Shown in pieces: positions 6,318-52,484 of a stretch of DNA of 64,000 nt. Below the pieces are notes generated by a model that searched no databases, was not told where the DNA came from, and worked only from the letters and a program-made list of their open reading frames with translations. Both the position numbers and the translations under genes were made by a program. Source of the stretch: Fuscibacter oryzae (GTDB lineage: Bacteria; Pseudomonadota; Alphaproteobacteria; Rhodobacterales; Rhodobacteraceae); the NCBI RefSeq assembly GCF_016765795.1, contig NZ_JAESVP010000003.1:186001-250000 (forward strand), read 5' to 3'. Position 1 is the stretch's first letter. The number at the start of each line of letters is the position of its first letter.

Positions 6318-7682
6318 TCAGCCCCCGTCGCGCGCGTCCAGGGCGGCGATTTCAGCCATCCGCGCGCGCATCTGTTTGTCCGAGCCGAAGCCATAGCGCG
6401 CAAGGGGTGCGGCGTCCAGATGCAGGCTGCGGGCGGCGGCGGTCTGGCCCGTCCTTTCCAGCGCGTGGGCCTTGATCAGCATCAGTGTCGCCGCCAGCGA
6501 AAAGTTCTGCGAATGCCGCGCCACGGGAATCGCATGGTCGGCAAAGGCGATGGCTTGCCGTGGCTGGCCGGTTTTCAAGGCAATCGCGGCAAGCTGCATG
6601 TCCACATGGGCCACATGCACCTCGGCGCCGGGCAGGTTGGCATAAACGCGCCGTGCCTCGGTCAGCGCCTGCACGGCGGCCTGCGGATCGAAGCCAAGCT
6701 GAGAGCGCCCCACAGCATAAAGCGCCAGCCCCAGCCGGGCATCGGTCCAGCCCTCGGCATGGGCGATGGCCAGCATCCGCTGGGCAGAGGCGGCGCGGGC
6801 CTTGCCACCCATGGGGCCAAAGGTCGCCTCGACGGCATCGGTCCAGTCATGCGGGCCGATGTCGGCAACTGTGGCGGGCAGACCGATGCCTGCGGGATTC
6901 AGGCGGGCCAAAATCGCGGGAAGGCGGGCGGCCACTTCGGCCTCTGTCATCCCGGAGTGCAGGTCTGGCGCATAGTGAATGCGCAGGATCAGCATATCGA
7001 AGGGGGTTAGCACTGCGTTGAAATTGTCGTCGTTAAAGACGGAGTCTGTCAGCCGATACAGGTCGTTCAGCGGGCCAAGCGCCTGGGCCAGTTCCTCGTG
7101 GAAACAGTCGCGCACCTCTTGCGGGCTGGTGTCAGAGGGCACAAAAATCGCCGCCCGCTGCCGTTGGGTCAACTGCCCCCAGTCTGTCAGGGCGTCGGTC
7201 CGGTGTCTGCGGTATTCGGCAAAAGAGCTGACGTTCGGCACCACGAAGCAGGCCGCCGTTGGGGCCGCGCGTGACAGGGAACGGCGCGGCAGGAATTCGA
7301 TGACAATACTGGCGCTTGATCCGGTTGCCGCCATGCGGATGTCTAGCCCCGCTTCGGCCTGCATGCGCCCGACAACGCGCTGTAATTCCGCCGCCGCCTG
7401 CTGTGGAACCGCGCCCGCCAGCGCCACAGTGACCGGCGTTTCAAACCGTGTGAGCATCGTCAGCCGCCGCCCGCTTTCCATCTGGAATTCCAGATCCAGA
7501 AAATCGCGCGCCAGATCGGCATTTCCATGCAGAGGTGCTGTCACCGCGCGCTGACCATCGGCCAGAAGCGGCAGCGCAACCAATGCCGTGGCCGGAGAAC
7601 CGGCGCGCATTGTCACCTCTGCGGCAGGGTGGGCGGTGCAGGCGGCCAGAAGCAGCAAGGGAAGAAAGATGGCACGGCGCAT
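6318..7682 (-). CDS. DUF2927-domain lipoprotein
   Basis: A 454-residue protein starting at the ATG at 7682, which gives a lipoprotein signal with lipobox LAAC and lipidated Cys15; longer upstream starts lack one. The central region (about residues 160-300) carries the DUF2927 features CFHEELAQALG and FNDDNFNAVL, including the conserved HEE that looks like half of a metal-protease site. The C-terminal 150 residues are helical and resemble TPR-like repeats (VGRSQLGFDPQAAVQALTEA). DUF2927 proteins are common in Rhodobacteraceae and unassigned. The gene lies between the MoxR and VWA genes, an uncommon placement, with about 500 bases of its own upstream region. Confidence 0.85.
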   Translation of the reverse strand: MRRAIFLPLLLLAACTAHPAAEVTMRAGSPATALVALPLLADGQRAVTAPLHGNADLARDFLDLEFQMESGRRLTMLTRFETPVTVALAGAVPQQAAAELQRVVGRMQAEAGLDIRMAATGSSASIVIEFLPRRSLSRAAPTAACFVVPNVSSFAEYRRHRTDALTDWGQLTQRQRAAIFVPSDTSPQEVRDCFHEELAQALGPLNDLYRLTDSVFNDDNFNAVLTPFDMLILRIHYAPDLHSGMTEAEVAARLPAILARLNPAGIGLPATVADIGPHDWTDAVEATFGPMGGKARAASAQRMLAIAHAEGWTDARLGLALYAVGRSQLGFDPQAAVQALTEARRVYANLPGAEVHVAHVDMQLAAIALKTGQPRQAIAFADHAIPVARHSQNFSLAATLMLIKAHALERTGQTAAARSLHLDAAPLARYGFGSDKQMRARMAEIAALDARDGG

Positions 7683-8193
7683 CAGTGAAGTCTCATTCGT
7701 AAAAAGGGCACGCAGGCAAGGCACCAAGGCAAGCTGTCCCAGGTCCGGGCTGCGGCGAGGGAAGCCCCCACTCCCCTCGCGCCGCCGGTCCGTTGCGGGT
7801 TTCCCCGCCGGTCCATTCACCCCGTTTGCCACCCTGTTTCCGCGCCCGTCTTGCCACACTGAAACAACGCGCGACAAGCCGATGATTTTCTTGCGATTCA
7901 CCAGATACGAGGCCCGAGCGGTCCTTGGTGGCAGCCGGTTGGTCCGCTCTTCGAGACAACATGCCCGCAATGTCTGTTTCTGGGCAGTCCGGTGTCAATC
8001 TTTGGATTTCCTGATTGTTTTGGCCAGACTAGCCTTGGCGGTCGTGGCGCAGCCATGTGCCAGATGTGCTGCCGTGTGATCACGGAAAGTTTCCAAGTGT
8101 TTCATAATTTGGGACTTAGGTGAATGAAACGTGGCGGAATGATGGCCAAGTTGTGGCTCTGCTGTACGAATCAGGGTTATCCACAGGCCAGCC
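7683..8193. other. 511-base intergenic region with no convincing gene
   Basis: It lies between the DUF2927 start and the MoxR stop, both on the reverse strand. Frames here are short, lack ribosome-binding sites and have no recognisable motif. A weak inverted pair GTTTCAT (8099-8105) and ATGAAAC (8124-8130) lies in an AT-richer patch, and one perfect DnaA-box-like 9-mer TTATCCACA is at 8177-8185. The promoter of the DUF2927 gene should be in the part near 7690-7900. A small RNA cannot be excluded by eye. Confidence 0.5.
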
Positions 8194-18343: not shown

Positions 18344-18421
18344 CATTTTCGGCTCGTGGGAAGCGGCTTGCCTCTGCCAGAGGGCTGCGGTCTGATGGGC
18401 AAAACCAGCAGGAGGTCGCAG

Positions 18422-19360
18422 ATGGCAACACTTGGCACGATGTTCGGGGCAGGGGCCGCGCGCGGGTTTCTGGGCCTGCCCGATGCGCCCGATCTGGCGG
18501 CGCTGGCGGCTGATGTTGTGATTCTGGGCGCTGATGGTTGCACTCCCTATGCCAGCGTTGGGCATTATTGCGCGGGGGGCGCGGCGGCGATCCGGGCGGC
18601 GGGCGCGCAATGGGCGGCCTCGCAGCAGGCGATGAATTTCGATCTGGGGCAGGCGGTCATTCCTGGCGGTGCGCGGATCGTGGATGCGGGCGATCTGGCG
18701 ATTTCGCAAGACGCCGCCGCCAACCGCGCTTTGCTGCGCGATGCGGCGGGCAAGGTGCTGGCGGCGGGGGCCGTGCCGGTTTTGCTGGGCGGGGACGATT
18801 CGTTGCCCATTCCGTTGTTGCAGGCGCTGGAGACGAAGGGGCCGCTGACCATTCTGCAAATCGATGCCCATATCGACTGGCGCGATGATGTGGGGGGCGA
18901 GCGCTGGGGCCTGTCATCAACCATGCGCCGCGCCTCCGAGATGGCGCATGTGGAGCGGATCATTCAGGTCGGCCAACGGGGCATCGGCTCTGCCCGGCCG
19001 GGCGATGCGCGGGCGGCAGAGGAATGGGGGGTAACCTTTGTTCCGGCGCGTGAGGTGGCGGCGCAGGGCATCGGCCGGGCGCTGTCGCTGATCCCCGAGG
19101 ACGCGAATATCGCGGTCTGTCTGGATGTGGACGCGCTGGACCCGGCGATCATGCCTGCCGTGATCGGGCGCGCGGCGGGGGGCCTGACCTATTGGCAGGT
19201 TTTCGAGCTGATCGCGGGGGCAGCGGCGCGCGGGCGGATCGTCAGCTTCGACATGGTGGAGTTCATGGCCAGCCGCGACATCGACGGACAGGGGGCACTG
19301 GTTGCGGCGCAGTTGCTGGCCGGGGTCTTGGGTGTTCTGGCAGGGCAGGTAGAGAAATGA
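18422..19360 (+). CDS. Arginase/agmatinase-family protein with altered metal ligand
   Basis: A 312-residue ureohydrolase. The start ATG at 18422 is fixed by a strong GGAGG six bases upstream; an ATG at 18395 has no such site. The second metal motif DAHID (D148, H150, D152) and the third, LDVDALDP (D235, D237), are intact. In the first motif the usual GGDHS is GGDDS, so the conserved His ligand is Asp126. Either the manganese site is altered or the protein is a specialised or non-catalytic subunit. Its TGA overlaps the ATG of the next, fully canonical family member, suggesting coupled translation and possibly a hetero-oligomer. The substrate (agmatine, guanidinobutyrate or another guanidine) cannot be read. 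Confidence 0.88.
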   Translation: MATLGTMFGAGAARGFLGLPDAPDLAALAADVVILGADGCTPYASVGHYCAGGAAAIRAAGAQWAASQQAMNFDLGQAVIPGGARIVDAGDLAISQDAAANRALLRDAAGKVLAAGAVPVLLGGDDSLPIPLLQALETKGPLTILQIDAHIDWRDDVGGERWGLSSTMRRASEMAHVERIIQVGQRGIGSARPGDARAAEEWGVTFVPAREVAAQGIGRALSLIPEDANIAVCLDVDALDPAIMPAVIGRAAGGLTYWQVFELIAGAAARGRIVSFDMVEFMASRDIDGQGALVAAQLLAGVLGVLAGQVEK

Positions 19361-20307
19361 GCAAGTTCAATCAACCGCTTGGTGGCAATGACATGCCGCG
19401 CTTTGGGGGGCCGGCCACGATGATGCGGCTGCCTTCGCAGGCGGATGCGGCGGGGCTGGATGTGGCTTTTGTCGGCATTCCGATGGACATCGGCACCTCG
19501 AACCGGCCCGGCACGCGGTTGGGCCCGCGCCAGATCCGCGACGAGTCCCGGATGCTGCGGCCTTATAACATGGCGACGGGGGCGGCACCGTTTGAACATT
19601 TGCAGGTGGCCGATATTGGGGATGTACCGATCAACACCTTTGATCTGAAAAAGTCGGTCGATATCATCACGTCGTTTTATGACGACGTGCTGGCAAAAGG
19701 CGCTCTCCCCCTGACGCTGGGGGGCGACCACACGCTGACCTGGCCCATTCTGCGGGCGATCAAGAAGAAACATGGTCCCGTGGCGCTGATCCATGTCGAT
19801 GCCCATGCCGACATCAACGACACGATGTTCGGCGAAAAGGTCGCGCATGGCTGCCCCTTTCGCCGGGCGTTTGAGGATGGCTGTCTGATCAATGACAAGG
19901 TATTCCAGATCGGGCTGCGCGGCACAGGATACAGCCCCGAGGATTTCGACTGGGGCCGCAAGAACGGTTGGACGGTCGTGCAAGCGGAAGAGTGCTGGCA
20001 CAAATCGCTGAAACCCTTGATGGAAGAGGTTCGGGCGAAGATCGGCGATGCGCCGGTTTACCTTTCCTATGACATCGACAGCCTTGACCCCGCCTTTGCC
20101 CCCGGCACCGGCACGGTGGAACCGGGTGGCCTGACCATCTGGCAGGGGCTGGAGATTGTGCGCGGCTGTGCGGGCCTGAACCTTGTGGGCGGTGATCTGG
20201 TGGAGGTCTCGCCCCCCTATGACCCAAGCGGTAACACCGCGCTGGTGGGGGCGAACCTGCTCTATGAAATGCTGTGCGTGCTGCCGGGGGTGCCGCAGGG
20301 GCGGTGA
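19357..20307 (+). CDS. speB: Agmatinase/guanidinobutyrase-type ureohydrolase
   Basis: A 316-residue member of the arginase family with all metal motifs: GGDHT (H125), DAHAD (D148, H150, D152) and YDIDSLDP (D239, D241), plus GTVEPGGLT. It hydrolyses a guanidino group to urea plus an amine. The segment EKVAHGCPFRRAFEDG is closer to guanidinobutyrase-type enzymes than to E. coli agmatinase, so the symbol speB is only a family label. The start overlaps the stop of the paralogous gene by 4 bases (ATGA). A composite palindromic repeat follows and purB comes next. Confidence 0.88.
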   Translation: MSKFNQPLGGNDMPRFGGPATMMRLPSQADAAGLDVAFVGIPMDIGTSNRPGTRLGPRQIRDESRMLRPYNMATGAAPFEHLQVADIGDVPINTFDLKKSVDIITSFYDDVLAKGALPLTLGGDHTLTWPILRAIKKKHGPVALIHVDAHADINDTMFGEKVAHGCPFRRAFEDGCLINDKVFQIGLRGTGYSPEDFDWGRKNGWTVVQAEECWHKSLKPLMEEVRAKIGDAPVYLSYDIDSLDPAFAPGTGTVEPGGLTIWQGLEIVRGCAGLNLVGGDLVEVSPPYDPSGNTALVGANLLYEMLCVLPGVPQGR

Positions 20308-20489: not shown

Positions 20490-21791
20490 ATGATCCCGCG
20501 CTATTCCCGCCCTGACATGGTTGCCATCTGGGAGCCGCAGACCCGCTTTCGCATCTGGTACGAGATCGAGGCGCATGCCTGCGACGCGCAGGCCGCCCTT
20601 GGCGTGATCCCCAAGGCCAATGCCGAAGCGGTCTGGAAGGCGAAGGACGTGGAGTTCAACGTCGCCCGCATCGACGAGATCGAGGCGGTGACCAAGCATG
20701 ACGTCATCGCCTTTCTGACCCATCTGGCCGAGATCATCGGCAATGATGAGGCACGGTTTGTCCATCAGGGCATGACCAGCAGCGATGTGCTGGACACCAC
20801 GTTGAACATTCAGCTTGTCCGCGCCAGCGACCTGTTGCTGAAGGGCCTCGACCGCGTTCTGGCTGCGCTGAAAGCCCGCGCTTATGAGCATAAGGATTCG
20901 GTCCGCATCGGCCGCAGCCACGGCATCCATGCCGAACCCACCACCATGGGCCTGACCTTCGCGCGCTTTTATGCCGAGATGGAGCGCGGCAAGCGCCGCC
21001 TTCTGGCCGCCCGCGAAGAAATACGCACCGGCGCGATTTCGGGCGCGGTCGGCACATTCGCCAATATCGACCCGCGGGTTGAGGAATACGTCTGCGAAAA
21101 GCTGGACCTGATCCCTGAAACCATCAGCACCCAGGTCATTCCGCGCGACCGCCATGCCATGTTCTTTGCTACCCTTGGCGTCATCGCCAGCAGCATCGAA
21201 AACATCGCCATTGAGATCCGCCACATGCAGCGCACCGAGGTGCTGGAGGCCGAAGAGTTCTTCTCTCCCGGCCAAAAGGGCAGCTCTGCCATGCCGCATA
21301 AACGCAACCCCGTGCTGACCGAAAACCTGACCGGTCTTGCCCGTCTGGTCCGCATGTCGGTGGTGCCGGCGTTGGAAAATGTCGCCCTTTGGCACGAGCG
21401 TGACATCAGCCATTCATCGGTGGAGCGTGCCATCGGCCCCGATACCACGATCACTCTGGATTTCGCGCTGCACCGTCTGGCGGGTGTGGTGGAAAAGCTG
21501 GTGGTCTACCCGGATAACATGCTGAAGAACATGAACAAGTTCAAAGGACTGGTCATGTCGCAGCGCGTTCTTCTGGCGCTGACGCAGGCGGGTGTGTCGC
21601 GCGAAGACAGCTATCGGCTGGTGCAACGCAACGCGATGAAGGTCTGGGAAAAAGGTGCCGATTTCAAAACCGAGCTTCTGGCCGACCCAGAGGTGACCGC
21701 TGCCCTGTCGCCCGCCGAGATCGAGGAAAAGTTCGACCTTGGTTATCACACCAAGCATGTCGATACCATTTTCGCCCGCGTTTTCGGCTGA
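20490..21791 (+). CDS. purB: Adenylosuccinate lyase
   Basis: A 433-residue lyase of the fumarase/aspartase superfamily that removes fumarate from SAICAR and from adenylosuccinate in purine synthesis. The superfamily signature GSSAMPHKRNP lies near residues 267-277, with TSSDVLDT near 95 and the catalytic-His region GRSHGIHAEPTT near 140. Its length is typical of the short bacterial PurB. The ribosome-binding site AAAGAAAGG precedes the ATG. It is followed by a terminator. Confidence 0.97.
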   Translation: MIPRYSRPDMVAIWEPQTRFRIWYEIEAHACDAQAALGVIPKANAEAVWKAKDVEFNVARIDEIEAVTKHDVIAFLTHLAEIIGNDEARFVHQGMTSSDVLDTTLNIQLVRASDLLLKGLDRVLAALKARAYEHKDSVRIGRSHGIHAEPTTMGLTFARFYAEMERGKRRLLAAREEIRTGAISGAVGTFANIDPRVEEYVCEKLDLIPETISTQVIPRDRHAMFFATLGVIASSIENIAIEIRHMQRTEVLEAEEFFSPGQKGSSAMPHKRNPVLTENLTGLARLVRMSVVPALENVALWHERDISHSSVERAIGPDTTITLDFALHRLAGVVEKLVVYPDNMLKNMNKFKGLVMSQRVLLALTQAGVSREDSYRLVQRNAMKVWEKGADFKTELLADPEVTAALSPAEIEEKFDLGYHTKHVDTIFARVFG

Positions 21792-21802
21792 TCAATGAAG
21801 CC

Positions 21803-21836
21803 CTGACGCCCGTTCCGACGGGCGGGCGTCAGTTTT
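21803..21836 (+). terminator. Rho-independent terminator after purB
   Basis: The stem CTGACGCCC (21803-21811) pairs with GGGCGTCAG (21824-21832) and is followed by TTTT. It lies 11 bases after the purB stop. Confidence 0.85.
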
Positions 21837-21901
21837 GGCAAAACGTGCATCGGCAATTGTGGATTCCGTGTTAGCTTTTTCAAAGCAACCGGAGAAAACC
21901 C

Positions 21902-22438
21902 ATGCGCCTTTTGCACGCCATCGCGCTCTTCGCCACCTTGCCCTTTGCGGCCCTTGCCGTTGGTTCGGATGACAGCGATCCGCCAAAGCCAACCCAGACC
22001 ACGACCCAATGCAAGAACGGCGAGGTCTGGGATGAAGCGCAGCAGAAATGCGTTCCGCCGCAGCACAATGACCTGAGCAATGACACCCGGTTCCGCGCGG
22101 TGCGCGAACTGGCTTGGGCCGGGCGCTATGACGATGCCATGCTGGTCCTGTCGTCGATGACCGAGGGTGAGACGGATCGCGTTCTGACTTATCGCGGTTT
22201 TATCCTGCGCAAATCGGGCAATATCGAACAGGGCATCGTGGCCTATGAGGCGGCGCTGAAGCTGAACCCCCACAACATCCTGACGCACAGCTATTACGGC
22301 CAGTTGCTGGTCGAGATGAACGAGGTGGATGCCGCGCGCGTGCATCTTGCCGCGATCCGGGCTGATGGCGGGCAGGGAACCTGGGCTGAAGCCTCTTTGG
22401 CCCACGCCATCGATACCGGGCTGACCTATACCTACTGA
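21902..22438 (+). CDS. Secreted TPR-like protein with C-x2-G-x2-W-x6-C motif
   Basis: A 178-residue protein with a signal peptide (residues 1-19, ending AALA). Near the new N terminus is C37-x2-G40-x2-W43-D44-x5-C50, followed by a helical region with TPR character (residues 65-160; GNIEQGIVAYEAALKLNPHN is a clear TPR helix pair). It is probably periplasmic. The same cysteine/tryptophan spacing recurs in the small protein encoded 20 bases downstream. TPR regions mediate protein contacts; no specific role can be given. Confidence 0.8.
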   Translation: MRLLHAIALFATLPFAALAVGSDDSDPPKPTQTTTQCKNGEVWDEAQQKCVPPQHNDLSNDTRFRAVRELAWAGRYDDAMLVLSSMTEGETDRVLTYRGFILRKSGNIEQGIVAYEAALKLNPHNILTHSYYGQLLVEMNEVDAARVHLAAIRADGGQGTWAEASLAHAIDTGLTYTY

Positions 22439-22458
22439 CCTTGCGCAAAGGGGGCGGC

Positions 22459-22623
22459 ATGAAAGTTCTGGCTGTTATGGCGTTGTGTCTTGTTTCCGGG
22501 GCGGCAGATGCCCAACAGCAATCCGTACCGCCCGGCGGGCACGATTGCGAAAGCCAACCCAGTTGTGCCACGGGAACCCTGTGGAATCCCGGCACGAAAA
22601 CCTGCGAGGCGGTGTCCAGCTAA
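22459..22623 (+). CDS. Small secreted cysteine-containing protein
   Basis: A 54-residue protein with a signal peptide (residues 1-18, ending AADA). The mature peptide of about 36 residues has C30 and the motif C36-x2-G39-x2-W42-N43-x5-C49, the same spacing as in the TPR-like protein upstream. GGGGGCGGC provides the ribosome-binding site. The pattern recalls small carbohydrate- or chitin-binding type folds, but this is only a resemblance. It is probably co-transcribed with the upstream gene. Confidence 0.65.
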   Translation: MKVLAVMALCLVSGAADAQQQSVPPGGHDCESQPSCATGTLWNPGTKTCEAVSS

Positions 22624-22678
22624 GGCGGCGTTAACCGGACCCTGCCAGTCTGACCTTGACCCGGGAATCGAGGCGGAT

Positions 22679-23752
22679 ATGTCAGAACGGCAGGCTTTGG
22701 CGCGAATTGAACCTGTAAAGCGGGCGGTGGCGATTCCGTCGGCCCCCAAGCCACGGGTACCCAGCCCGCGCGAAAAGGCGGCCATCATCGTGCGGTTCCT
22801 GCTGGCCGAGGGGGCAGAGATACCGCTGTCGCGCCTGCCCGAACACATGCAATCCTCGTTAACCGAGCAGATGGGCCAGATGCGGCTGGTGGATCGCACC
22901 ACCCTTGCCAGCGTCGTCGAAGAGTTTCTGGCAGAGCTGGAGCAGGTTGGCATGGCCTTTCCTGGTGGTATCGAAGATGCCTTGTCGGTGATGGGGGGGC
23001 ATATTTCGCCCAATGCCGCCAACCGGTTGCGCCGCCTTGCCGGGGCCTCTGCCAAGGCCGATCCCTGGGACCGGCTGACGCAACTGCCAACCGACCGCCT
23101 GCTGCCAGTGCTGGAAGAGGAAAGCGCCGAGGTGGCGGCGGTGATGCTGTCAAAGCTGCCGGTGGCGCGGTCGGCGGAACTCTTGGGCATGCTGCCGGGC
23201 GACCGGGCACGGCGGGTGGCCTTTGCCGTCTCGATGACCGGGAATGTCGATCCTGAAACCGTGCGCCGGATAGGCCTGTCGCTGGCCACCCAACTGGATG
23301 CCCAGCCGCCCCGCGCGTTCGAGGCGGGACCAGTGGAACGGGTGGGCGCGATCCTGAACATCTCGCCCGCGCTGACCCGCGAAGATGTGTTGAAAGGGCT
23401 GGAGGAAGAGGATCGCAGATTTGCCGATCAGGTGCGCAAGGCGATTTTCACCTTTGCCCATATTCCCACCCGGCTGTCGCCCCGCGATGTGCCAAAGGTG
23501 ATTCGCGTTGTCGATCAGACGGTTCTGGTCAGTGCCCTTGCGGGGGCCAGTGGCGAGGCGGATGCGACGACGGCCGAATTCCTCCTTGCCAATGTCTCGC
23601 AACGCATGGCGCAGGCTTTGCGCGAAGAGATCGCCGGGCGCGGCAAGGTGCGCGAGAAGGACGCCGAAGAGGCGATGGCTGCGGTTGTCACCTCGATCCG
23701 GCAGTTGGAGGGGGCGGGTGAGTTGAACCTGATCCGCGAGGAGGACGAATAG
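22679..23752 (+). CDS. FliG paralogue (flagellar motor switch family), orphan copy
   Basis: A 357-residue protein with the FliG domain order. The N domain (about 28-105) begins REKAAIIVRFLLAEG, the middle domain covers about 130-210 (LLPVLEEESAEVAAVMLSKL) and the C domain 245-345 (RDVPKVIRVVDQTVLVSALAG). The C domain has the NVSQRMAQAL motif, but ALAG replaces the usual ALKG and some torque-helix charges are missing. FliG couples the flagellar rotor to the stator. No other flagellar gene is in the window, so this is an isolated copy, perhaps with a changed role. The ATG at 22679 follows GAGGCGG. Confidence 0.82.
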   Translation: MSERQALARIEPVKRAVAIPSAPKPRVPSPREKAAIIVRFLLAEGAEIPLSRLPEHMQSSLTEQMGQMRLVDRTTLASVVEEFLAELEQVGMAFPGGIEDALSVMGGHISPNAANRLRRLAGASAKADPWDRLTQLPTDRLLPVLEEESAEVAAVMLSKLPVARSAELLGMLPGDRARRVAFAVSMTGNVDPETVRRIGLSLATQLDAQPPRAFEAGPVERVGAILNISPALTREDVLKGLEEEDRRFADQVRKAIFTFAHIPTRLSPRDVPKVIRVVDQTVLVSALAGASGEADATTAEFLLANVSQRMAQALREEIAGRGKVREKDAEEAMAAVVTSIRQLEGAGELNLIREEDE

Positions 23753-23798: not shown

Positions 23799-24440
23799 AT
23801 GGAACGAGTCGTCGGCAAGGTCGTGACGGTGGAATTTGACGGCAAACGCTGCGTCCATTCGCGCAACTGCGTGCTGTCTCATCCAGAGGTTTTTGTGCCA
23901 AACGTGCAGGGTGAGTGGATTTTTCCAGATGCCGCCACACCAGAGGCGGTGCTGCAAATTGGCCTCAACTGCCCCTCTGGCGCCATCCGGGTGCGGCGGA
24001 ACGACGGGGCGGCCAGCTCTGATGCAGCGCCCGTGGTCAACCTGCTGCGTCTGCGCGAAAACGGCCCCCTGGCGTTGGAGGCGCCAATTCTGATCGGCGG
24101 TCAGCAGCAGGTCGCGTCGCGTGCAACGCTGTGCCGGTGCGGGCATTCCGCGAACAAGCCCTATTGCGATGGAAGCCATACCGCCGCGGGGTTCGTCGCA
24201 ACCGGAGAGGTGGCCGCAAAAGACAGCCAACCTCTGGAGCAGCGCAATGGCCCGGTCGAGGTTGTCGCCCAGCCCGACGGCCCGCTGAAGGTGACCGGCA
24301 ACCTAGAGGTGGTGTCGGGCACGGGCCGCACCCTCAACCGGGCAACAAGGCTGTTCCTGTGCCGCTGTGGCCATTCGGCGAACAAGCCGTATTGCGATGG
24401 CAGCCACAAGGCTGCGGGATTCACAGCGCCGGGGGTTTAA
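23799..24440 (+). CDS. Iron-sulfur protein: one Fer4_19-like domain and two CDGSH domains
   Basis: A 213-residue three-domain protein. Residues 5-68 (Cys18, Cys24, Cys58; CVHSRNCV and LNCPSGAI) match the small 4Fe-4S mono-cluster domain of the YjdI/Fer4_19 kind. Two copies of CRCGHSANKPYCDGSH follow, with ligands C112, C114, C123, H127 and C188, C190, C199, H203; each binds a 2Fe-2S cluster in the mitoNEET manner. The two CDGSH blocks are identical over 16 residues. A role in redox sensing or cluster transfer is inferred. AGGAG precedes the ATG. Confidence 0.9.
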   Translation: MERVVGKVVTVEFDGKRCVHSRNCVLSHPEVFVPNVQGEWIFPDAATPEAVLQIGLNCPSGAIRVRRNDGAASSDAAPVVNLLRLRENGPLALEAPILIGGQQQVASRATLCRCGHSANKPYCDGSHTAAGFVATGEVAAKDSQPLEQRNGPVEVVAQPDGPLKVTGNLEVVSGTGRTLNRATRLFLCRCGHSANKPYCDGSHKAAGFTAPGV

Positions 24441-24552: not shown

Positions 24553-25890
24553 CTATCCCAGCAGACGGGGATCAAATGGATATTTCGTCAGATTCTCGAA
24601 CCCCGTCTCGGTGATCAGAACCTGATCTTCCAGCTTGATCGAGAAGTTGCCCCCTTCGGGTGAAACCAGCGCCTCGACGCACAAGACCATCCCCGGCTCC
24701 AGCGCCACCTCGAAGGCCCCGTCCACCCAGGCATCGGCATAGGGCACAAAGGGCCATTCGTCGCACAGGCCAACTCCGTGCATCTTGCAAGAATACTTCT
24801 GCTTCCAGTACTGGCCGTCCAACTGGTGGCCGTTGTGCGTCAGCTCCTTGATCGTGACACCCGGTTTCAGCATCGCCATGTTCTCGCGGATGTGGTCCAT
24901 GCCGTGGTTCATCGCCGAAATCATCGCATTGGTCGGGCGCCCGTCCCCCACCCACCATGTCCGCGAGATATCGATGCAGATGCCATAGCTGCCGATCAGA
25001 TCGGTATCAAAGGCGACAATCTCGTTATTCTGCACGATCCGGGGCCCACATTCCTGAAACCACGGGTTGGTACGCGGACCCGATGCCAGAAGCCGCGTCT
25101 CGATCCACTCTCCCCCACGCCGGATGTTGCCCTTGTGCAGCTCTGCCCAGATGTCATCTTCGGAAACGCCGCCCTTGGGCACGTTTTCACGGGTAAACGC
25201 CTCCATCCCGGCGATGGCGCTTTCGCAGGCATAGGCGGCGCAGCGCATCGCCAGAATTTCGTCGGGGCCCTTCACGGCACGGGCGCGTTCGGTGATAACC
25301 TCGCCCTCCAGCACCTCAAACCCGGCGCGTTCCAGCGCGCGCAACCCGTGGACCATGATCTTGTCCACGGCCAGCCGACGGTTGGTGCCGGCATGGGCGC
25401 GCATCACCTCGTCCACTTGGCCGGCGAAAGCCTTGGCATCGCCCGCCGTTGCATCACCGCAGACGTTGTAAAAGAAACTCGCGCCGTGGCGCAGTTCGGC
25501 CACCAGCGGGTTGAAAGTCACCAGAAACGGCGCCTGTTTGTATTCCCAGACCACCATATGGCCATCGGCGCACAAAAGGCAGGCGCGGAACGGGTTGTGG
25601 CTGTTCCAAAGCTGCATATTGGTGGTGTCGGTCACATAGCGGATGTTCAGCGGGTCAAACATCAGTACGCCGCCCACATCGCGGTTGATCAATTGCTGGG
25701 TCAGCCGCCGCCAGCGATATTCCCGCATCTTTGCCAGATCGGGCGGCACCAGCCCCGCCGCCTGCCATTCGCCAAAGGCCAGTTGCGTTGGCCCGATCTC
25801 GACCCGGTCATTGTCATTCGGGGTGCCGTCGGCCAGTCGGTCGGCGCGGGCGGGGTCAATCTTGCGGCGGGTTTCAGCATAAGAGGTCAT
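24553..25890 (-). CDS. dddP: DMSP lyase DddP (M24 peptidase-fold metalloenzyme)
   Basis: A 445-residue M24-family protein that matches DddP from Roseovarius and Ruegeria along its length, from my memory of those sequences: EIGPTQLAFGEW, then LMFDPLNIRYVTDTTNMQLW, TRLLASGPRTNPWFQECGP and FDTDLIGSYGICIDISRTWW. The metal ligands fall at D295, D297, D307, H371, E406 and E421, the set reported for DddP crystal structures. DddP cleaves dimethylsulfoniopropionate to DMS and acrylate in the cytoplasm. No DMSP transporter or acrylate genes are adjacent. It converges on the CDGSH gene and diverges from the HODM-like gene. The ribosome-binding site is weak. Confidence 0.88.
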   Translation of the reverse strand: MTSYAETRRKIDPARADRLADGTPNDNDRVEIGPTQLAFGEWQAAGLVPPDLAKMREYRWRRLTQQLINRDVGGVLMFDPLNIRYVTDTTNMQLWNSHNPFRACLLCADGHMVVWEYKQAPFLVTFNPLVAELRHGASFFYNVCGDATAGDAKAFAGQVDEVMRAHAGTNRRLAVDKIMVHGLRALERAGFEVLEGEVITERARAVKGPDEILAMRCAAYACESAIAGMEAFTRENVPKGGVSEDDIWAELHKGNIRRGGEWIETRLLASGPRTNPWFQECGPRIVQNNEIVAFDTDLIGSYGICIDISRTWWVGDGRPTNAMISAMNHGMDHIRENMAMLKPGVTIKELTHNGHQLDGQYWKQKYSCKMHGVGLCDEWPFVPYADAWVDGAFEVALEPGMVLCVEALVSPEGGNFSIKLEDQVLITETGFENLTKYPFDPRLLG

Positions 25891-25976
25891 GGCGGGTTCC
25901 GGATTTGTGTTGTGCCCAGCTTCGCGCCACCGGTGTCAAAGGCATGCCAGTTGACGACATTTCCCGTCGCCTATTG

Positions 25977-26009
25977 CCTTCACATTGGCCCAAGCATCCC
26001 CGCCGGAGG
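25977..26009 (-). repeat. Dispersed intergenic element copy between dddP and HODM-like gene
   Basis: Read on the reverse strand it gives GGCGGGGATGCTTGGGCCAA and then TGTGAAGG, close to the copy at 31636-31664 (GGCGGGGATATTTGGGCCAG). GCCCAAGC (25988-25995) also pairs with GCTTGGGC (26040-26047), so the element could fold into the leader of the downstream gene. Confidence 0.6.
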
Positions 26010-26058
26010 CTCCGCACGCGGGGCTTGCGCTGGGTTCGGGCTTGGGCGAAGAACGGGC

Positions 26059-26841
26059 ATGACCGATCCGATCCTGCAAACCCGCCTGCCATTCGCCCCC
26101 TGGATGGACCCGCGCACCGCGCGCTTGCCGGGCATTCTGCAGGTCGAGGGCGACGACTGGTTGCGGGTTGATGATGCCTTTGCCGCCCAGATGGCAGAGC
26201 GCGACCGCCTGCTGGCCACCCGGCCGGAGATGGTGGTCGGAATGCTGGACAGCGCAGGCCCGGCGGCGGGCGAGCTTTATGCCGAGGTTCTTGCCCGGCT
26301 TGGCCGGACGCCCGGCTATCATGTCGGCGCCAGCACGGTGCAGCGCCCCGATGGCGTAACGGTTGCGCTGGACCCGGCGCAGCCGATGGCCACCTTGCTG
26401 CGGCTGGTGCAGGAAGATCTGTGCCTGATGGAAAAGCACGGGGACGAACATGTGCTGACCGCCGCTGCCCTGTGCTTTCCGGCAAGCTGGTGGTTGGGGG
26501 AAAAGCTGGGCCGTCCACTGTTGGGCATTCATGTGCCGGTGCCCAGCTATGATGCCGATATTGCCCGAAGGGTGCAGCGGTTGTTCGATGCGATCCGGGC
26601 GGAACAGCCGCTTTGGCGGGCCAATGCGCTGATTTACCGCGACCCGACGCTGCATCAGCCGCGCCGCGAGGATGACCCGCGCATCGACCGCCACGGCGGG
26701 TCTTTTGTGCGCTCTGAACGGCAGGTGTTGCGGCGACTGCCCCGGACCGGCGCCGTGGTATTTTCGATCCACACCTATGTGGTGCGGATCGAAACGCTTA
26801 CTCCGGCAGAATTTGACGGCTTGCAGAAAGCCCAGCGCTGA
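26059..26841 (+). CDS. DUF3445 protein, heme-dependent oxidative N-demethylase-like
   Basis: A 260-residue protein of the DUF3445 family, which includes a fungal heme-dependent oxidative N-demethylase acting on dimethylamine. Visible landmarks are PFAPWMDPRTARLPGI at the N terminus, the LVQEDLCLMEK segment near residues 115-125 and LCFPASWWLGEKLGRPLLGIH near 138-158. The C-terminal SERQVLRRLPRTGAVVFSIHTYVV is also typical. It probably binds heme through a PAS-like core. The reaction in bacteria is not firmly known. The gene diverges from dddP with 168 bases between them. Confidence 0.8.
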   Translation: MTDPILQTRLPFAPWMDPRTARLPGILQVEGDDWLRVDDAFAAQMAERDRLLATRPEMVVGMLDSAGPAAGELYAEVLARLGRTPGYHVGASTVQRPDGVTVALDPAQPMATLLRLVQEDLCLMEKHGDEHVLTAAALCFPASWWLGEKLGRPLLGIHVPVPSYDADIARRVQRLFDAIRAEQPLWRANALIYRDPTLHQPRREDDPRIDRHGGSFVRSERQVLRRLPRTGAVVFSIHTYVVRIETLTPAEFDGLQKAQR

Positions 26842-26859: not shown

Positions 26860-27681
26860 TCAGGTCAGTGCCGCCAGGCTATGAACCAGATCGGTGTTCG
26901 ACACCGCGATCATCAGGCTTGCCAACGTCATGGCGCGGGAAGAGAACCGCATGTCGCCGCCCTTCAGAAATCCATAGGCCATCACCAGAGCTGCGACAGG
27001 CGCGTTCACGGCAAGCAGCGAGGCATTCATGGCGTGGGCGGCCAGTTGCAGCGGGCGCGACGGCTGTTCAACCTGTTGCACGTCGTCGCCACAAGGATAC
27101 AGCGCTTCGCGCAGGCGGCCCAACTCTGGGTCATGCCAGCGTGCTGCCTCGCCCTCGGGTTGGGCCTGCATCTCCTTGGCGTCTTCGGCCATGGTGATCT
27201 CCAGATCCGCTGCTGCCTCGCGGGCGGCCTCTTCGTTCAGCATTTCGCCGATGTTCGGCGTGGTCAGCCGGGGCAGGGCATCGACCAACTCGTCCAGCGT
27301 CTCTGAGGTGGCGATGCCGGGGATGTGATGCCACAGCACAGCTTCATGCGGGATGCGGCGCTGCACACGCTCGGCCAGTTGCACGCACATCGTGTCATGG
27401 GCCGGGAACTGCCCGGCCACCGCCGCGATGGGCGAGGGGCCGACCGAGATGGTCAGGCAGGACAGGCGGTCGAGGCCGATACCCTCGCTCCAGCCCAACA
27501 GAATGCGTGTGCCCGGCATGTCGAACAGCGCGATATCTTCGCAATCCCACGTCAGATTGACGGCGCAAGACGCAAACCGACTAAGCACCGAGTCGAGGTC
27601 GCCGACCAGCCGCGCAAAGTTCACCTGGGTTTCAGCAGCACACACAAGCTGACAAATCGTACCTGGCATGGACTGTCCCAT
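26860..27681 (-). CDS. Conserved protein of unknown function with C-terminal hydrophobic segments
   Basis: A 273-residue protein. The ATG at 27681 follows GGAGGG and is preferred to an in-frame ATG at 27753. Residues 1-140 are a soluble alpha/beta region (CAVNLTWDCEDIALFDMPG, then RILLGWSEGIGLDRLSCLTI). Residues 150-205 are Glu-rich and helical (EMLNEEAAREAAADLEITM), and residues 220-265 contain one or two hydrophobic stretches that could span the membrane. I do not recognise the family. A perfect CtrA-type box lies 73 bases upstream of the start, suggesting cell-cycle or motility-linked control. Confidence 0.75.
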   Translation of the reverse strand: MGQSMPGTICQLVCAAETQVNFARLVGDLDSVLSRFASCAVNLTWDCEDIALFDMPGTRILLGWSEGIGLDRLSCLTISVGPSPIAAVAGQFPAHDTMCVQLAERVQRRIPHEAVLWHHIPGIATSETLDELVDALPRLTTPNIGEMLNEEAAREAAADLEITMAEDAKEMQAQPEGEAARWHDPELGRLREALYPCGDDVQQVEQPSRPLQLAAHAMNASLLAVNAPVAALVMAYGFLKGGDMRFSSRAMTLASLMIAVSNTDLVHSLAALT

Positions 27682-27753
27682 AGCGCCCTCCGATATCTGA
27701 ACAACCTGACCGTGTAGGCGGATTGTGCCCTGAAACTGGTTCGAATGTGGCAA

Positions 27754-27977: not shown

Positions 27978-29387
27978 TCAGCAGGAGTAGTACATCGCAT
28001 ATTCAACCGGGTGGGGTGTATGCTCATAGGCGTACACTTCTTCCCACTTCAGGCCGATATAGGCGTCAAGCTGCTCTTTCGAGAACACGCCGCCTGCCAG
28101 CAGGAAGTCCATGTCCTTCTCCAGCTCTTCCAGCGCTTCGCGCAGGGAACCGCAGACGGTCGGGATTTCCGCCAGTTCTTCGGGCGGCAGGTCGTACAGA
28201 TCCTTGTCCGAAGCCGGGCCGGGATCGATCTTGTTCTTGATGCCGTCCAGACCTGCCATCAGCAGGGCCGCAAAGGCCAGATAGGGGTTCGCCGCCGGAT
28301 CGGGGAAACGCGCCTCGACGCGCTTGGCCTTCGGCGATTCCGTCCACGGAATACGAACGCAGCCCGACCGGTTGCGGGCCGAGTATGCGCGCAGAACCGG
28401 GGCTTCAAAGCCGGGGATCAGACGCTTGTAGCTGTTGGTCGACGGGTTGGTCAGCGCGTTCAGCGCCTTGGCGTGCTTCAGGATGCCGCCGATGAAGTAC
28501 AGGGCTTCCTGCGACAGGTCGGCATACTTGTCACCGGCGAACAGGGGCTTGCCGTCCTTCCAGATCGACATGTTGACGTGCATCCCCGACCCGTTGTCGC
28601 CCTTCATGGGCTTGGGCATGAAGGTCACCGACTTGCCATAGGCGGCGGCGACGTTGTGGATGACGTACTTGTACTTCTGGATATTGTCGGCCTGTTCGAC
28701 CAGACCACCGAAGATCATGCCCAGCTCGTGCTGGCAGGTGGCGACCTCGTGGTGGTGCTTGTCCACCTTGATGCCGATGCGCTTCATCGTGGACAGCATC
28801 TCGCCGCGCAGATCCTGCGCTTCGTCGATCGGGTTCACCGGGAAATAGCCACCCTTGTGACCCGCGCGATGCGCCTGGTTGCCAGACTCGTATTCCGTAT
28901 CGGTGTTCCAGGCCGCCGCATGGGCGTCGATCTGGTAGGCCACCTTTTGCGGCGTGACCGAATAGCGCACGTCGTCAAAGATGAAGAATTCAGCTTCGGG
29001 GCCGCAATAGAACGCATCGCCCAAGCCCGAGGATTTCAGGTAGGCTTCGGCCTTCTTGGCAATCTGGCGGGGGCAGCGGTCATAGGCTTCTCCGGTGTCC
29101 GGCTCGACCACGTCGCAATGCACGCACAGGGTTTTTTCGGCGTAGAACGGGTCCATATAGACCGACGACGCATCCGGCATCAGTTTCATGTCGGACTGGT
29201 CGATCGACTTCCAGCCGGCGATGGAGGAACCATCGAACATGAAGCCTTCTTCAAAGAAGTCTTCATCCACCAGGTCGGTCACCAGGGTGACGTGCTGAAG
29301 TTTGCCTTTGGGGTCGGTGAAACGAATATCGAGATATTCGATTTCCTCGTCCTTGATCAGCTTCAGAGCTTTTGCAACTGCGCTCAT
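27978..29387 (-). CDS. glnA: Glutamine synthetase type I
   Basis: A 469-residue GSI-beta. The beta-grasp N domain ([14 protein letters not shown]) is followed by the metal and ammonia site ([19 protein letters not shown]) and the ATP motif [18 protein letters not shown]. The adenylylation loop [11 protein letters not shown] near residue 395 carries the target Tyr. It forms glutamine from glutamate and ammonia in the cytoplasm as a dodecamer, and is regulated by GlnE adenylylation under PII control. It lies 53 bases downstream of glnB on the same strand, the standard glnBA operon of alphaproteobacteria. Confidence 0.98.
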
Positions 29388-29440: not shown

Positions 29441-31576
<2,136 letters not shown>

Positions 31577-50054: not shown

Positions 50055-52484
50055 ATGAGCGATTTTCCAACATCGGCGCGGGTTGTGATCATTGGCGGCG
50101 GCGCGGTGGGGGTTTCCTCGCTGTATCATCTGGCCAAGGCCGGGTGGACCGATTGCCTGCTGCTGGAAAAGAACGAGCTGACGGCGGGCAGCACCTGGCA
50201 CGCGGCGGGCAATGTGCCGACGTTTTCGTCAAGCTGGTCGATCATGAACATGCAGCGCTATTCGGCAGAGCTGTATCGGCGGCTGGGGGCCGAAGTTGAC
50301 TATCCGATGAATTATCACGTCACCGGATCGGTGCGTCTGGCCCATACCAAGGAACGCTTGCAAGAGTTTCAGCGGGTGGTCGGCATGGGGCGCTATCAGG
50401 GAATGGACCTGAAGATCCTGACCCCGGATGAGGTGAAGGAGGTCTATCCCTTCCTTGAAACCCACGATCTGACCGGCGCGCTGCACGACCCCTATGATGG
50501 CGACATCGACCCCGCGCAACTGACGCAGGCTTTGGCCAAGGGTGCGCGGCAAATGGGCGCGCGGATTGAGCGGTTCTGCCCGGTGGATGGCGTGGAATGG
50601 ACCGGGACCGAGTGGATCATTTCCACCCCCAAGGGCGATGTGCGGGCCGAATATGTGGTGAACGCTGCCGGGTATTATGCCCGCGAGGTTGGCCGCATGT
50701 TTGGCCGCGAGGTGCCGATGATGGTGATGAGCCATCAGTACATGCTGTTCGACACCATTCCCGAGCTGGAGGCGTGGTCCAAGGATGTGGGCCACAAGCT
50801 GCCGCTGCTGCGCGATGTGGATTCCAGCTACTATCTGCGGCAGGAAAAGAACGGTTTCAACCTTGGCCCCTATGAGCGCAACTGCAAGGCGCACTGGATT
50901 TCCAAGGACGACCCCTTCCCGCAGGACTTCAGCTTCCAACTTTTCCCCGATGATCTGGAGCGGTTGGAGTGGCACATCGCCGATGCCATGGCCCGCGTGC
51001 CGCTGCTGGAAAAAGCCCCGCTGACGAAGGTGATCAACGGCCCGATTCCTTACGCCCCCGATGGCAACCCGCTGATCGGGCCAATGCCCGGCGTGCCCAA
51101 TGCGTTTGAGGCTTGCGTCTTTACCTTCGGCATTTGTCAGGCCGGGGGGGCGGGCAAGGTGCTGGCCGAATGGATCACCGAAGGGGCGACCGAATGGGAT
51201 ATGTGGTCCTGCGACCCCCGCCGCTTTACCGGGTTTGAGGATGAGGATTACTGCATCCAGAAGGGGATGGAGGTTTACGGCCACGAATACGGTATCCATT
51301 TCCCCCACCACGCTTGGCCCGCCGCGCGGGGCAAAAAGCTGTCGGCGGTGCATGAACGCACCAAGGCTTTGGGCGCGGTTTATGGCGCCTATAACGGGTG
51401 GGAGCGGGCCTTGTGGTATGCCCGCCCCGGAGATGACACATCCGAGGCGGGCACCCAGACATGGGACCGGGAAGGCCCTTGGTTTGCTGCTGTAAAGGCG
51501 GAATGCGAGGCGGTGCGGGATGGCGTCGGCGTGCTGGACCTGCCGGGGTTCAGCCGGTTCGAGCTGGAAGGGCCGGGGGCGGCCGACTGGCTAAGCCGCC
51601 AGATCACCGGCAAACTGCCCGCCGTGGGCCGCATGGGCCTGGCCTATTTCGCCGATGACAAGGGCCGCATCGTCACCGAAATGTCGGTGGTGCGGCGCGA
51701 GGAGGAGGCCTTTACCCTGATCACGGCAGCCCTTGCGCAAAGCCATGACGGCGAATGGTTGAAGCGGCATCTGGCCGAGGGTCTGACCCTGCGCGACCGG
51801 ACCGAGGATTTCACTTGCCTGATCGTGACCGGGCCAAAGTCGCGCGATCTGCTGGCGGGGCTGACCGGGGCTGACCTTTCGGCGAAATGGCTGAGCGTGC
51901 AGCCCGCAGCGGTTGCCGGGCAGGATTGCGCGCTGTTCCGCGTCAGCTTTGCGGGGGAATTGGGCTGGGAAATTCATGCGACCCCGGCACGGATGCCCGC
52001 AATCTATGATGCGGTGATTGCGGCGGGGGCAAAGCCCTTTGGCATGTTCGCGCTGAACAGCTTGCGCGTGGAAAAGGGCTATCGCGCGTGGAAGGGCGAT
52101 CTTTCAACCGATTACACCGTGCTGCAAGGCGGGCTGGAGCGGTTTGTCGATTGGTCAAAACCCGCGTTCCGGGGCAAGGCCGCGCTGGAGGCGGAAAAGC
52201 AGCGCGGGGTGGCCAAGCGGTTCTGCACGCTGGTGATCGAGGCTGGAGAGCAGGATCCGCCGTACATGTCCACCATCTGGCACGGCGGCAAGGTCGTGGG
52301 CGAGCTGACCTCTGGCTATTACGGGCATCGGGTGGGGGCTGTGATCGGCCTTGGGATGTTGCGGGCCGATCTGAATGTGCCGGGGGTGAAGGTGGAGGTC
52401 GAGATTTTCGGCACGCTCTACCCCGCCACGGTGCAGGCAGATCAGCCGCTGTGGGATGCCAAGAACGAGCGTATCCGCGCGTGA
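50055..52484 (+). CDS. FAD/folate-dependent N-methyl amine dehydrogenase (DMGDH/sarcosine dehydrogenase-like), copy 1
   Basis: An 809-residue protein with the DMGDH/SARDH layout: an FAD-binding DAO domain (residues 1-370; VVIIGGGAVGVSSLYHLAK, then TAGSTWHAAG with the His that carries FAD covalently), an FAO_M linker, and GcvT plus GcvT_C folate domains from about 420. The conserved Asp in VGVLDLPGFSRFELEG is present. Such enzymes oxidise an N-methyl group and hand the carbon to tetrahydrofolate. GGGGAG precedes the ATG. It is the first gene of the cluster controlled by the divergent LysR regulator. The exact amine is unknown. Confidence 0.88.
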   Translation: MSDFPTSARVVIIGGGAVGVSSLYHLAKAGWTDCLLLEKNELTAGSTWHAAGNVPTFSSSWSIMNMQRYSAELYRRLGAEVDYPMNYHVTGSVRLAHTKERLQEFQRVVGMGRYQGMDLKILTPDEVKEVYPFLETHDLTGALHDPYDGDIDPAQLTQALAKGARQMGARIERFCPVDGVEWTGTEWIISTPKGDVRAEYVVNAAGYYAREVGRMFGREVPMMVMSHQYMLFDTIPELEAWSKDVGHKLPLLRDVDSSYYLRQEKNGFNLGPYERNCKAHWISKDDPFPQDFSFQLFPDDLERLEWHIADAMARVPLLEKAPLTKVINGPIPYAPDGNPLIGPMPGVPNAFEACVFTFGICQAGGAGKVLAEWITEGATEWDMWSCDPRRFTGFEDEDYCIQKGMEVYGHEYGIHFPHHAWPAARGKKLSAVHERTKALGAVYGAYNGWERALWYARPGDDTSEAGTQTWDREGPWFAAVKAECEAVRDGVGVLDLPGFSRFELEGPGAADWLSRQITGKLPAVGRMGLAYFADDKGRIVTEMSVVRREEEAFTLITAALAQSHDGEWLKRHLAEGLTLRDRTEDFTCLIVTGPKSRDLLAGLTGADLSAKWLSVQPAAVAGQDCALFRVSFAGELGWEIHATPARMPAIYDAVIAAGAKPFGMFALNSLRVEKGYRAWKGDLSTDYTVLQGGLERFVDWSKPAFRGKAALEAEKQRGVAKRFCTLVIEAGEQDPPYMSTIWHGGKVVGELTSGYYGHRVGAVIGLGMLRADLNVPGVKVEVEIFGTLYPATVQADQPLWDAKNERIRA

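Follow-up and report, generated by a model that had tools for sequence, protein, structure and literature searches.

The locus described here raises the question of whether a 445-residue M24-fold protein of Fuscibacter oryzae is a DMSP lyase of the DddP type, and how the surroundings of its gene are to be understood. The gene lies in a window (the whole stretch of DNA analysed) of 64,000 nucleotides, for which a sequence-only reading had proposed a DddP in an unusual neighbourhood. The first part of this proposal was borne out by the equivalog model NF043017, by relatives in the PDB and by phylogeny, while most of the claimed surprise about the neighbourhood dissolves. Very probably the gene is a dddP, coding for a DMSP lyase of the DddP type and standing at the site normal for it family-wide, with an inverted repeat upstream that is perhaps an operator; synteny suggests vertical inheritance of the gene. 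The features of the locus are listed in Table 1.

Table 1. Coordinates of the features at the dddP locus in the window
Feature	Coordinates	Strand	Basis
purB, conserved locus marker	20490..21791	+	TIGR00928; synteny
fliG-like flagellar motor switch protein, part of the conserved syntenic block	22565..23752	+	Pfam FliG_N, FliG_M, FliG_C
Iron-sulfur protein with two CDGSH domains and Fer4_19, 213 aa, convergent with dddP	23799..24440	+	Pfam
dddP, DMSP lyase DddP, 445 aa, M24 'pita-bread' fold	24553..25890	-	NF043017, phmmer to 4rzy, nine active-site residues, tree, pN/pS
Candidate operator, 17-bp inverted repeat	25954..25970	.	Alignment and upstream pattern counts
HODM-like protein (PF11927), 260 aa, divergent from dddP	26059..26841	+	Pfam, 175.8 bits; 42 bits to PDB 5lte
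glnA, conserved locus marker	27978..29387	-	TIGR00653; synteny
glnB, after glnA	29441-29788		

The dddP gene is a single intact open reading frame of 445 codons, as had been read from the sequence, and the Pfam model Peptidase_M24 matches its product with 93.9 bits. The cut-off of NF043017, the NCBIfam equivalog model for DddP, is 600 bits, and the product reaches 839.5. A phmmer search of the PDB gave 706 bits with 4rzy (the 4rzy group, three distinct sequences, spanning 701–706) and 678 bits with 4b28, while the next best matches, prolidases (proline dipeptidases), fall to 44 bits. Entries 4rzy, 4rzz, 4s00 and 4s01 are taken to be structures of DddP from Ruegeria lacuscaerulensis, presumably a marine host, and 4b28 that of DddP from R. 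denitrificans. Entry 4S01 represents the complex of DddP with acrylate (PMC10686828). Comparison with five relatives gave pN/pS values of 0.09–0.27, with differences mostly in third codon positions; the gene is under purifying selection. The genome (3.8 Mb, 21 contigs, 97.6% complete) contains one DddP only, the second-best match having 35.5 bits. A plus-strand open frame, 24778–26841, runs antisense across part of dddP and continues into the HODM-like gene; its portion before 26059 is taken as a presumed GC-rich antisense artefact, and the portion from 26059 matches the Pfam HODM family.

Alignment with the R. lacuscaerulensis enzyme 4rzy, which is full-length and collinear in numbering from residue 8 onward, showed the presence of D295, D297, D307, H371, E406 and E421, so that all six metal ligands named by the sequence-only reading were confirmed at their positions, together with W95, Y366 and D377; the nine residues are identical in the two proteins. 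D297, D307, H371, E406 and E421 are assumed to be metal-ligand numbers of DddP, as given by that reading, and W95 is likewise assumed to be the number of the active-site tryptophan. Asp295 is named as a residue of DddP, and Y366 and D377, in DddP numbering, as catalytic in PMC4108388. Of 118 sequences, 109 retain all nine residues; those that do not are one M24 peptidase, one relative of about 40% identity and seven sequences of 30–36% identity. Because eight of the nine relatives of about 40% identity, which belong to the same family, retain the complete set, the metal ligands alone do not discriminate DddP and the residue argument by itself is insufficient with respect to these relatives; they are separated by the tree, and the window protein is supported by NF043017, the scan with which covered the window protein, with the relatives of about 40% identity outside it.

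The maximum-likelihood tree comprised 59 rows, with a single M24 peptidase row as outgroup. The window protein was found in a clade of 37 rows (support 100/99) together with 4rzy and the DddP of Roseovarius nubinhibens ISM, its nearest neighbour being L054 (94% identity), followed by L003 and by Tabrizicola and Gemmobacter rows, and the relatives of about 40% identity (L157–L164 and L176_2) fall outside this clade, unlike the window protein. As caveats on this tree, 15 out of 56 inner branches are open, a number of long branches come together, the branch of the M24 outgroup is very long, and the 37-row clade takes in one row of 61% identity (L172) that had been labelled apart beforehand. Membership of the M24 creatinases or Xaa-Pro peptidases, with only a resemblance to DddP, would agree with the assignment to Peptidase_M24 and with the sharing of the nine residues by eight of the nine relatives of about 40% identity, so that the residues alone do not decide; M24 peptidases, however, reach at most 44 bits against 706 for DddP, the equivalog cut-off is passed by about 240 bits, and the protein lies inside the DddP clade, not outside it, where the sequence-only reading would have expected a peptidase. 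On bit scores, equivalog model and tree, this identity was rejected, its probability being practically nil. Among the relatives of about 40% identity, L158–L164 and L176_2 form a DddP-like clade of their own (100/100), in which seven of eight keep the nine active-site residues; L157 is separate from it.

The DddP of R. nubinhibens, for which knock-out and E. coli assays are reported (PMC4108388, PMC5395565), shares 304 of 442 residues with the window protein and belongs to the same supported clade. Mechanism and metal data for DddP are given in PMC4108388 and PMC5395565, and RdDddP is a homodimer with a binuclear iron-rich centre (PMC4108388). By analogy with these characterised homologues, the metal content, dimer and reaction of the window DddP would be as follows: an M24-fold homodimer with a di-metal, mainly iron, centre would grip the carboxylate of DMSP, its sulfonium end would be gripped by W95 and Y366, and D377 would abstract the alpha-proton, leading to beta-elimination of DMSP, a compound of algae, to gaseous dimethyl sulfide and acrylate. 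The acrylate would presumably be dealt with by genes that lie in other parts of the genome (AcuI, contig 3). Since the identity as DddP is strongly supported, the window protein likely has DMS-forming capacity.

Among the nine proteins scanned between 20490 and 29791, Pfam identified the CDGSH/Fer4_19 and HODM_asu-like proteins as the neighbours of dddP, and no DMSP-transport or acrylate genes were found, both in agreement with the sequence-only reading. The HODM-like protein scores 175.8 bits with PF11927, the cut-off of which is 25, yet reaches only 42 bits with HODM itself, the haem-dependent oxidative N-demethylase of PDB 5lte. The fliG-like protein gave 133 bits with TIGR00207, below the NCBIfam fliG threshold of 226.7, and the open reading frame at 26863–27753 has no family match. 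The block purB–TPR–fliG (20490–23752) is oriented relative to dddP in the opposite way to most relatives; the same orientation in L054 suggests a local inversion, which is probable. Beside purB, at 18356–20307, two tandem open reading frames were judged by eye to be ureohydrolase-like (agmatinase/arginase type).

The surroundings of dddP were compared in a sample of 198 genomes of the family. At a threshold of E ≤ 1e-60 DddP is matched in 118 of them, and at E ≤ 1e-20 HODM is matched in 142; the pairing counts refer to the 117 dddP genomes with rows of at least 51% identity. Both genes were found in 98 genomes, and in 92 of these they lie within 3 kb of each other in divergent orientation, with a median gap of 148 bp; no HODM match was obtained in 19 of the 117 dddP genomes. 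For named genomes, 79 dddP loci remained after removal of one duplicate, and a divergent HODM gene within 3 kb is present in 50 of the 76 having at least 1.2 kb upstream. The block nnr–glnB–glnA ... HODM–dddP ... purB–(TPR)–fliG is found again, not always without gaps, in genera ranging from Tabrizicola to Leisingera and Ruegeria: among 42 loci with full flanks, glnA or purB is kept in 38 and HODM in 27 of those 38. The description of the neighbourhood as unusual was therefore rejected, since a HODM gene beside dddP is the rule in the family and the gene order with its glnA/purB site recurs family-wide; the window dddP sits at its normal site, divergent from the HODM-like gene. The CDGSH gene is an exception to the conserved order, being found at only 6 of 69 named-genome dddP loci with more than 1.5 kb downstream, so the surprise expressed earlier about this neighbour is not explained away. 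In R. nubinhibens glnB and glnA lie upstream of dddP as in the window; unlike the window, its dddP has neither an adjacent HODM gene nor an exact CGAC...GTCG repeat upstream.

That repeat is the one new and testable item at the locus. In the window it lies in the dddP–HODM intergenic region and reads GCGAC-N7-GTCGT on the minus strand, its first base lying 80 nt ahead of the ATG of dddP. An alignment of 19 dddP–HODM intergenic regions showed little conservation besides the start codons and CGAC...GTCGC. Of 92 dddP upstream regions, 56 show the exact pattern CGAC-N5..11-GTCG between -45 and -115 and 36 lack it; none of 226 upstream regions of purB, fliG, glnB, glnA, nnr, TPR and CDGSH genes has it. 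CGAC heads all 256 four-base palindromes upstream of dddP with these 56 occurrences, the runner-up, the overlapping GCGA, having 28; in random 260-bp pieces CGAC...GTCG occurs in 2.7% at that position range and in 9.0% over the whole piece. A spacer of 7 prevails among loci of at least 74% identity (26 of 39), and one of 10 is seen in half of the less similar loci (9 of 18); the 37 loci below 74% identity, of which 18 have the repeat, were outside the alignment. A stricter scan for GCGAC-N5..8-GTCGC was too narrow for the less similar loci and was replaced. The pattern was picked after the 19-row alignment and the spacer widened after upstream sequences had been inspected, so all these counts, with position and spacer ranges set after viewing the sequences, are post hoc and descriptive.

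By class of locus, the repeat was found in 47 of 65 loci with the dddP–HODM pair, in 10 of 28 dddP loci without HODM and in 1 of 37 HODM-only loci, for which 260 bp were scored. Its occurrence thus goes with dddP, the more so when HODM is there as well. Counted from HODM, 40 of 64 cases have it between -45 and -115, largely in the same intergenic regions as those counted for dddP. The CGAC-N7-10-GTCG repeat may be an operator shared by the dddP and HODM promoters. Open-access literature, with the original dddP papers outside this scope, yielded no description of a CGAC...GTCG repeat at dddP; the one paper that brings dddP together with a promoter and an inverted repeat treats another operon, acuR–acuI–dddL, as far as its accessible parts extend. 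AcuR was not adopted as the regulator: its operator in R. sphaeroides, TAATAGAC-n6-GTCTATTA (PMC3017554), has just the GAC...GTC core in common with the repeat. A gene of the TetR type, situated some 1 kb from acuI, has a weak CecR match (94.5 bits against a cut-off of 365). RegA/PrrA became a candidate because its sites are degenerate GCG inverted repeats with a variable spacer (PMC4263372, PMC5359404) and the genome encodes a PrrA-type regulator (C18; 316.9 bits, cut-off 250). The fit of the window repeat to such sites is loose and proves little, as no strong consensus for PrrA was found according to the accessible parts of PMC4263372; regulation by RegA/PrrA through the repeat is only a lead. 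The conserved repeat provides a concrete handle for studying dddP regulation.

The distribution of the repeat by class, its position upstream of HODM and the divergent arrangement kept in 92 of 98 genomes could be read as a sign of more than adjacency: dddP and the HODM-like gene would work together as a pair, co-regulated via the shared repeat and acting on linked substrates. HODM is also more common in genomes with dddP (98 of 117) than in those without (44 of 81), a comparison that ignores shared ancestry and incomplete genomes; in G124, one of the 44 genomes counted as HODM-only, a contig end truncates dddP. Such a pairing is nevertheless considered unlikely. Synteny extends over the whole block, and proximity can therefore be explained without a functional link; HODM keeps the same site where dddP is missing, with glnA on the same stretch in 28 and glnA or purB in 29 of the 38 HODM-only loci examined (out of 44); and at the four full-flank loci where dddP lies away from glnA/purB, HODM accompanies it in one. 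Neither marker is present on the other nine HODM-only stretches, on one of which (L119) dddP is cut by the contig end. The persistence of HODM at the glnA/purB site fits repeated loss of dddP from it. Open-access literature, the earliest dddP papers being outside this scope, contained no link between dddP and HODM or dimethylamine monooxygenase; the strain of PMC12930554 lacks dddP, and work on dimethylamine monooxygenase is merely cited there, as far as the accessible parts of that paper extend. A more specific form of the pairing is a long shot: dimethyl sulfide, the product of DddP, is the sulfur analogue of dimethylamine, and the HODM-like protein would oxidatively demethylate it to methanethiol and formaldehyde, both genes being switched through CGAC-N7-10-GTCG by redox control of the RegBA/PrrBA type. 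If the HODM-like protein did act on dimethyl sulfide, the locus would be a compact route from DMSP to methanethiol.

Other genes of possible relevance to DMSP, namely acuI, a DmdA-like gene and a DMSP_lyase-type cupin gene, were found elsewhere in the genome on different contigs (C3, C5 and C17), and a dedicated DMSP cassette was accordingly discarded. AcuI scores 415 bits with the YhdH/AcuI model TIGR02823 and 479 bits with the solved AcuI 5gxe/5gxf, and 398 bits with the stricter NF051456, below its cut-off of 440. The DmdA-like protein has 257 bits with 3tfh, which is taken to be DmdA of Pelagibacter, the record title reading GcvT-like aminomethyltransferase; with 355.7 bits in the NCBIfam DmdA model, below the cut-off of 410, its identity as DmdA is not claimed. 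Nor is the cupin claimed as a second lyase, as it has no NCBIfam model match and only 33 bits with the solved DMSP lyase 5cu1, with a PF16867 score of 125 bits, above the cut-off. A search of the whole genome revealed no BCCT transporter, and three OpuAC-type binding proteins exceed the Pfam cut-off.

With the AcuI, DmdA-like and cupin proteins of this genome as queries, tblastn gave no match in the 79 named-genome dddP loci (flanks of at most 8 kb, many shorter), and no recognised DMSP gene was found among the immediate neighbour open reading frames scanned at the relocated dddP genes (L023, L047, L048, L052, L056 and L068). For Rhodobacteraceae, and this includes lineages with MAGs from ponds and lakes, a dddP without other DMSP genes alongside is a normal arrangement; the absence of a DMSP cluster is therefore no ground to dismiss DMS-forming potential. 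At L068 the open reading frame adjoining the relocated dddP belongs to the MttB methyltransferase family. On C5 the DmdA-like gene (5727–6896 of L117) lies directly downstream, on the same strand, of an open reading frame at 6859–8061, judged by eye to be of the methionine gamma-lyase type; the two are possibly a methanethiol-releasing pair. Thirteen GCV_T-domain matches above the Pfam cut-off were detected in the genome; nine lie in open frames exceeding 800 aa, and two of the thirteen are inside the window (about 51348–52142 and 53848–54663). They amount to a rich set of aminomethyltransferase-type enzymes, at a guess sarcosine- or dimethylglycine-like.

The natural substrate requires separate consideration. 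Characterised DddPs have Km values of 14–17 mM (PMC5395565), because of which another natural substrate is possible, and DMSOP is a known second substrate of DddP (PMC10686828). The supply of DMSP in the inland waters of some close relatives is uncertain: record titles contain 'pond' for L011, L035 and L041 and 'ErkenSummer' for L027. In this lineage DddP might accordingly serve mainly for DMSOP or for some other sulfonium or betaine-like acid and cleave DMSP as a side activity; the millimolar Km (PMC5395565), the pond or lake labels of some relatives, the genome without BCCT and the slight preference of R. nubinhibens DddP for DMSOP in E. coli (PMC10686828) would be in favour of this. This is quite unlikely, however, given that most DddPs favour DMSP (PMC10686828) and that all nine active-site residues are unchanged. 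In Rhizobium sp. P38BS-XIX (L012, 6908–14135) the gene for a DddP of 81% identity lies away from the glnA/purB block, preceded by a LysR gene and followed by one for an OpuAC-type betaine-binding protein; ProP is encoded close by, and the arrangement looks like horizontal transfer into an osmolyte-uptake setting. This relocated gene in an osmolyte-type setting also speaks against a non-DMSP role, as it is consistent with chemistry of the DMSP kind in close relatives of the window protein, and with an osmolyte of the DMSP class without singling out DMSP. Cleavage of DMSP is the preferred reading for the window protein.

Among the loci compared, L078 and L079 have the same size (23042) and range, one being filed under Roseobacter and the other under a 'Flavobacteriia' MAG; the latter label is probably a mis-assignment.
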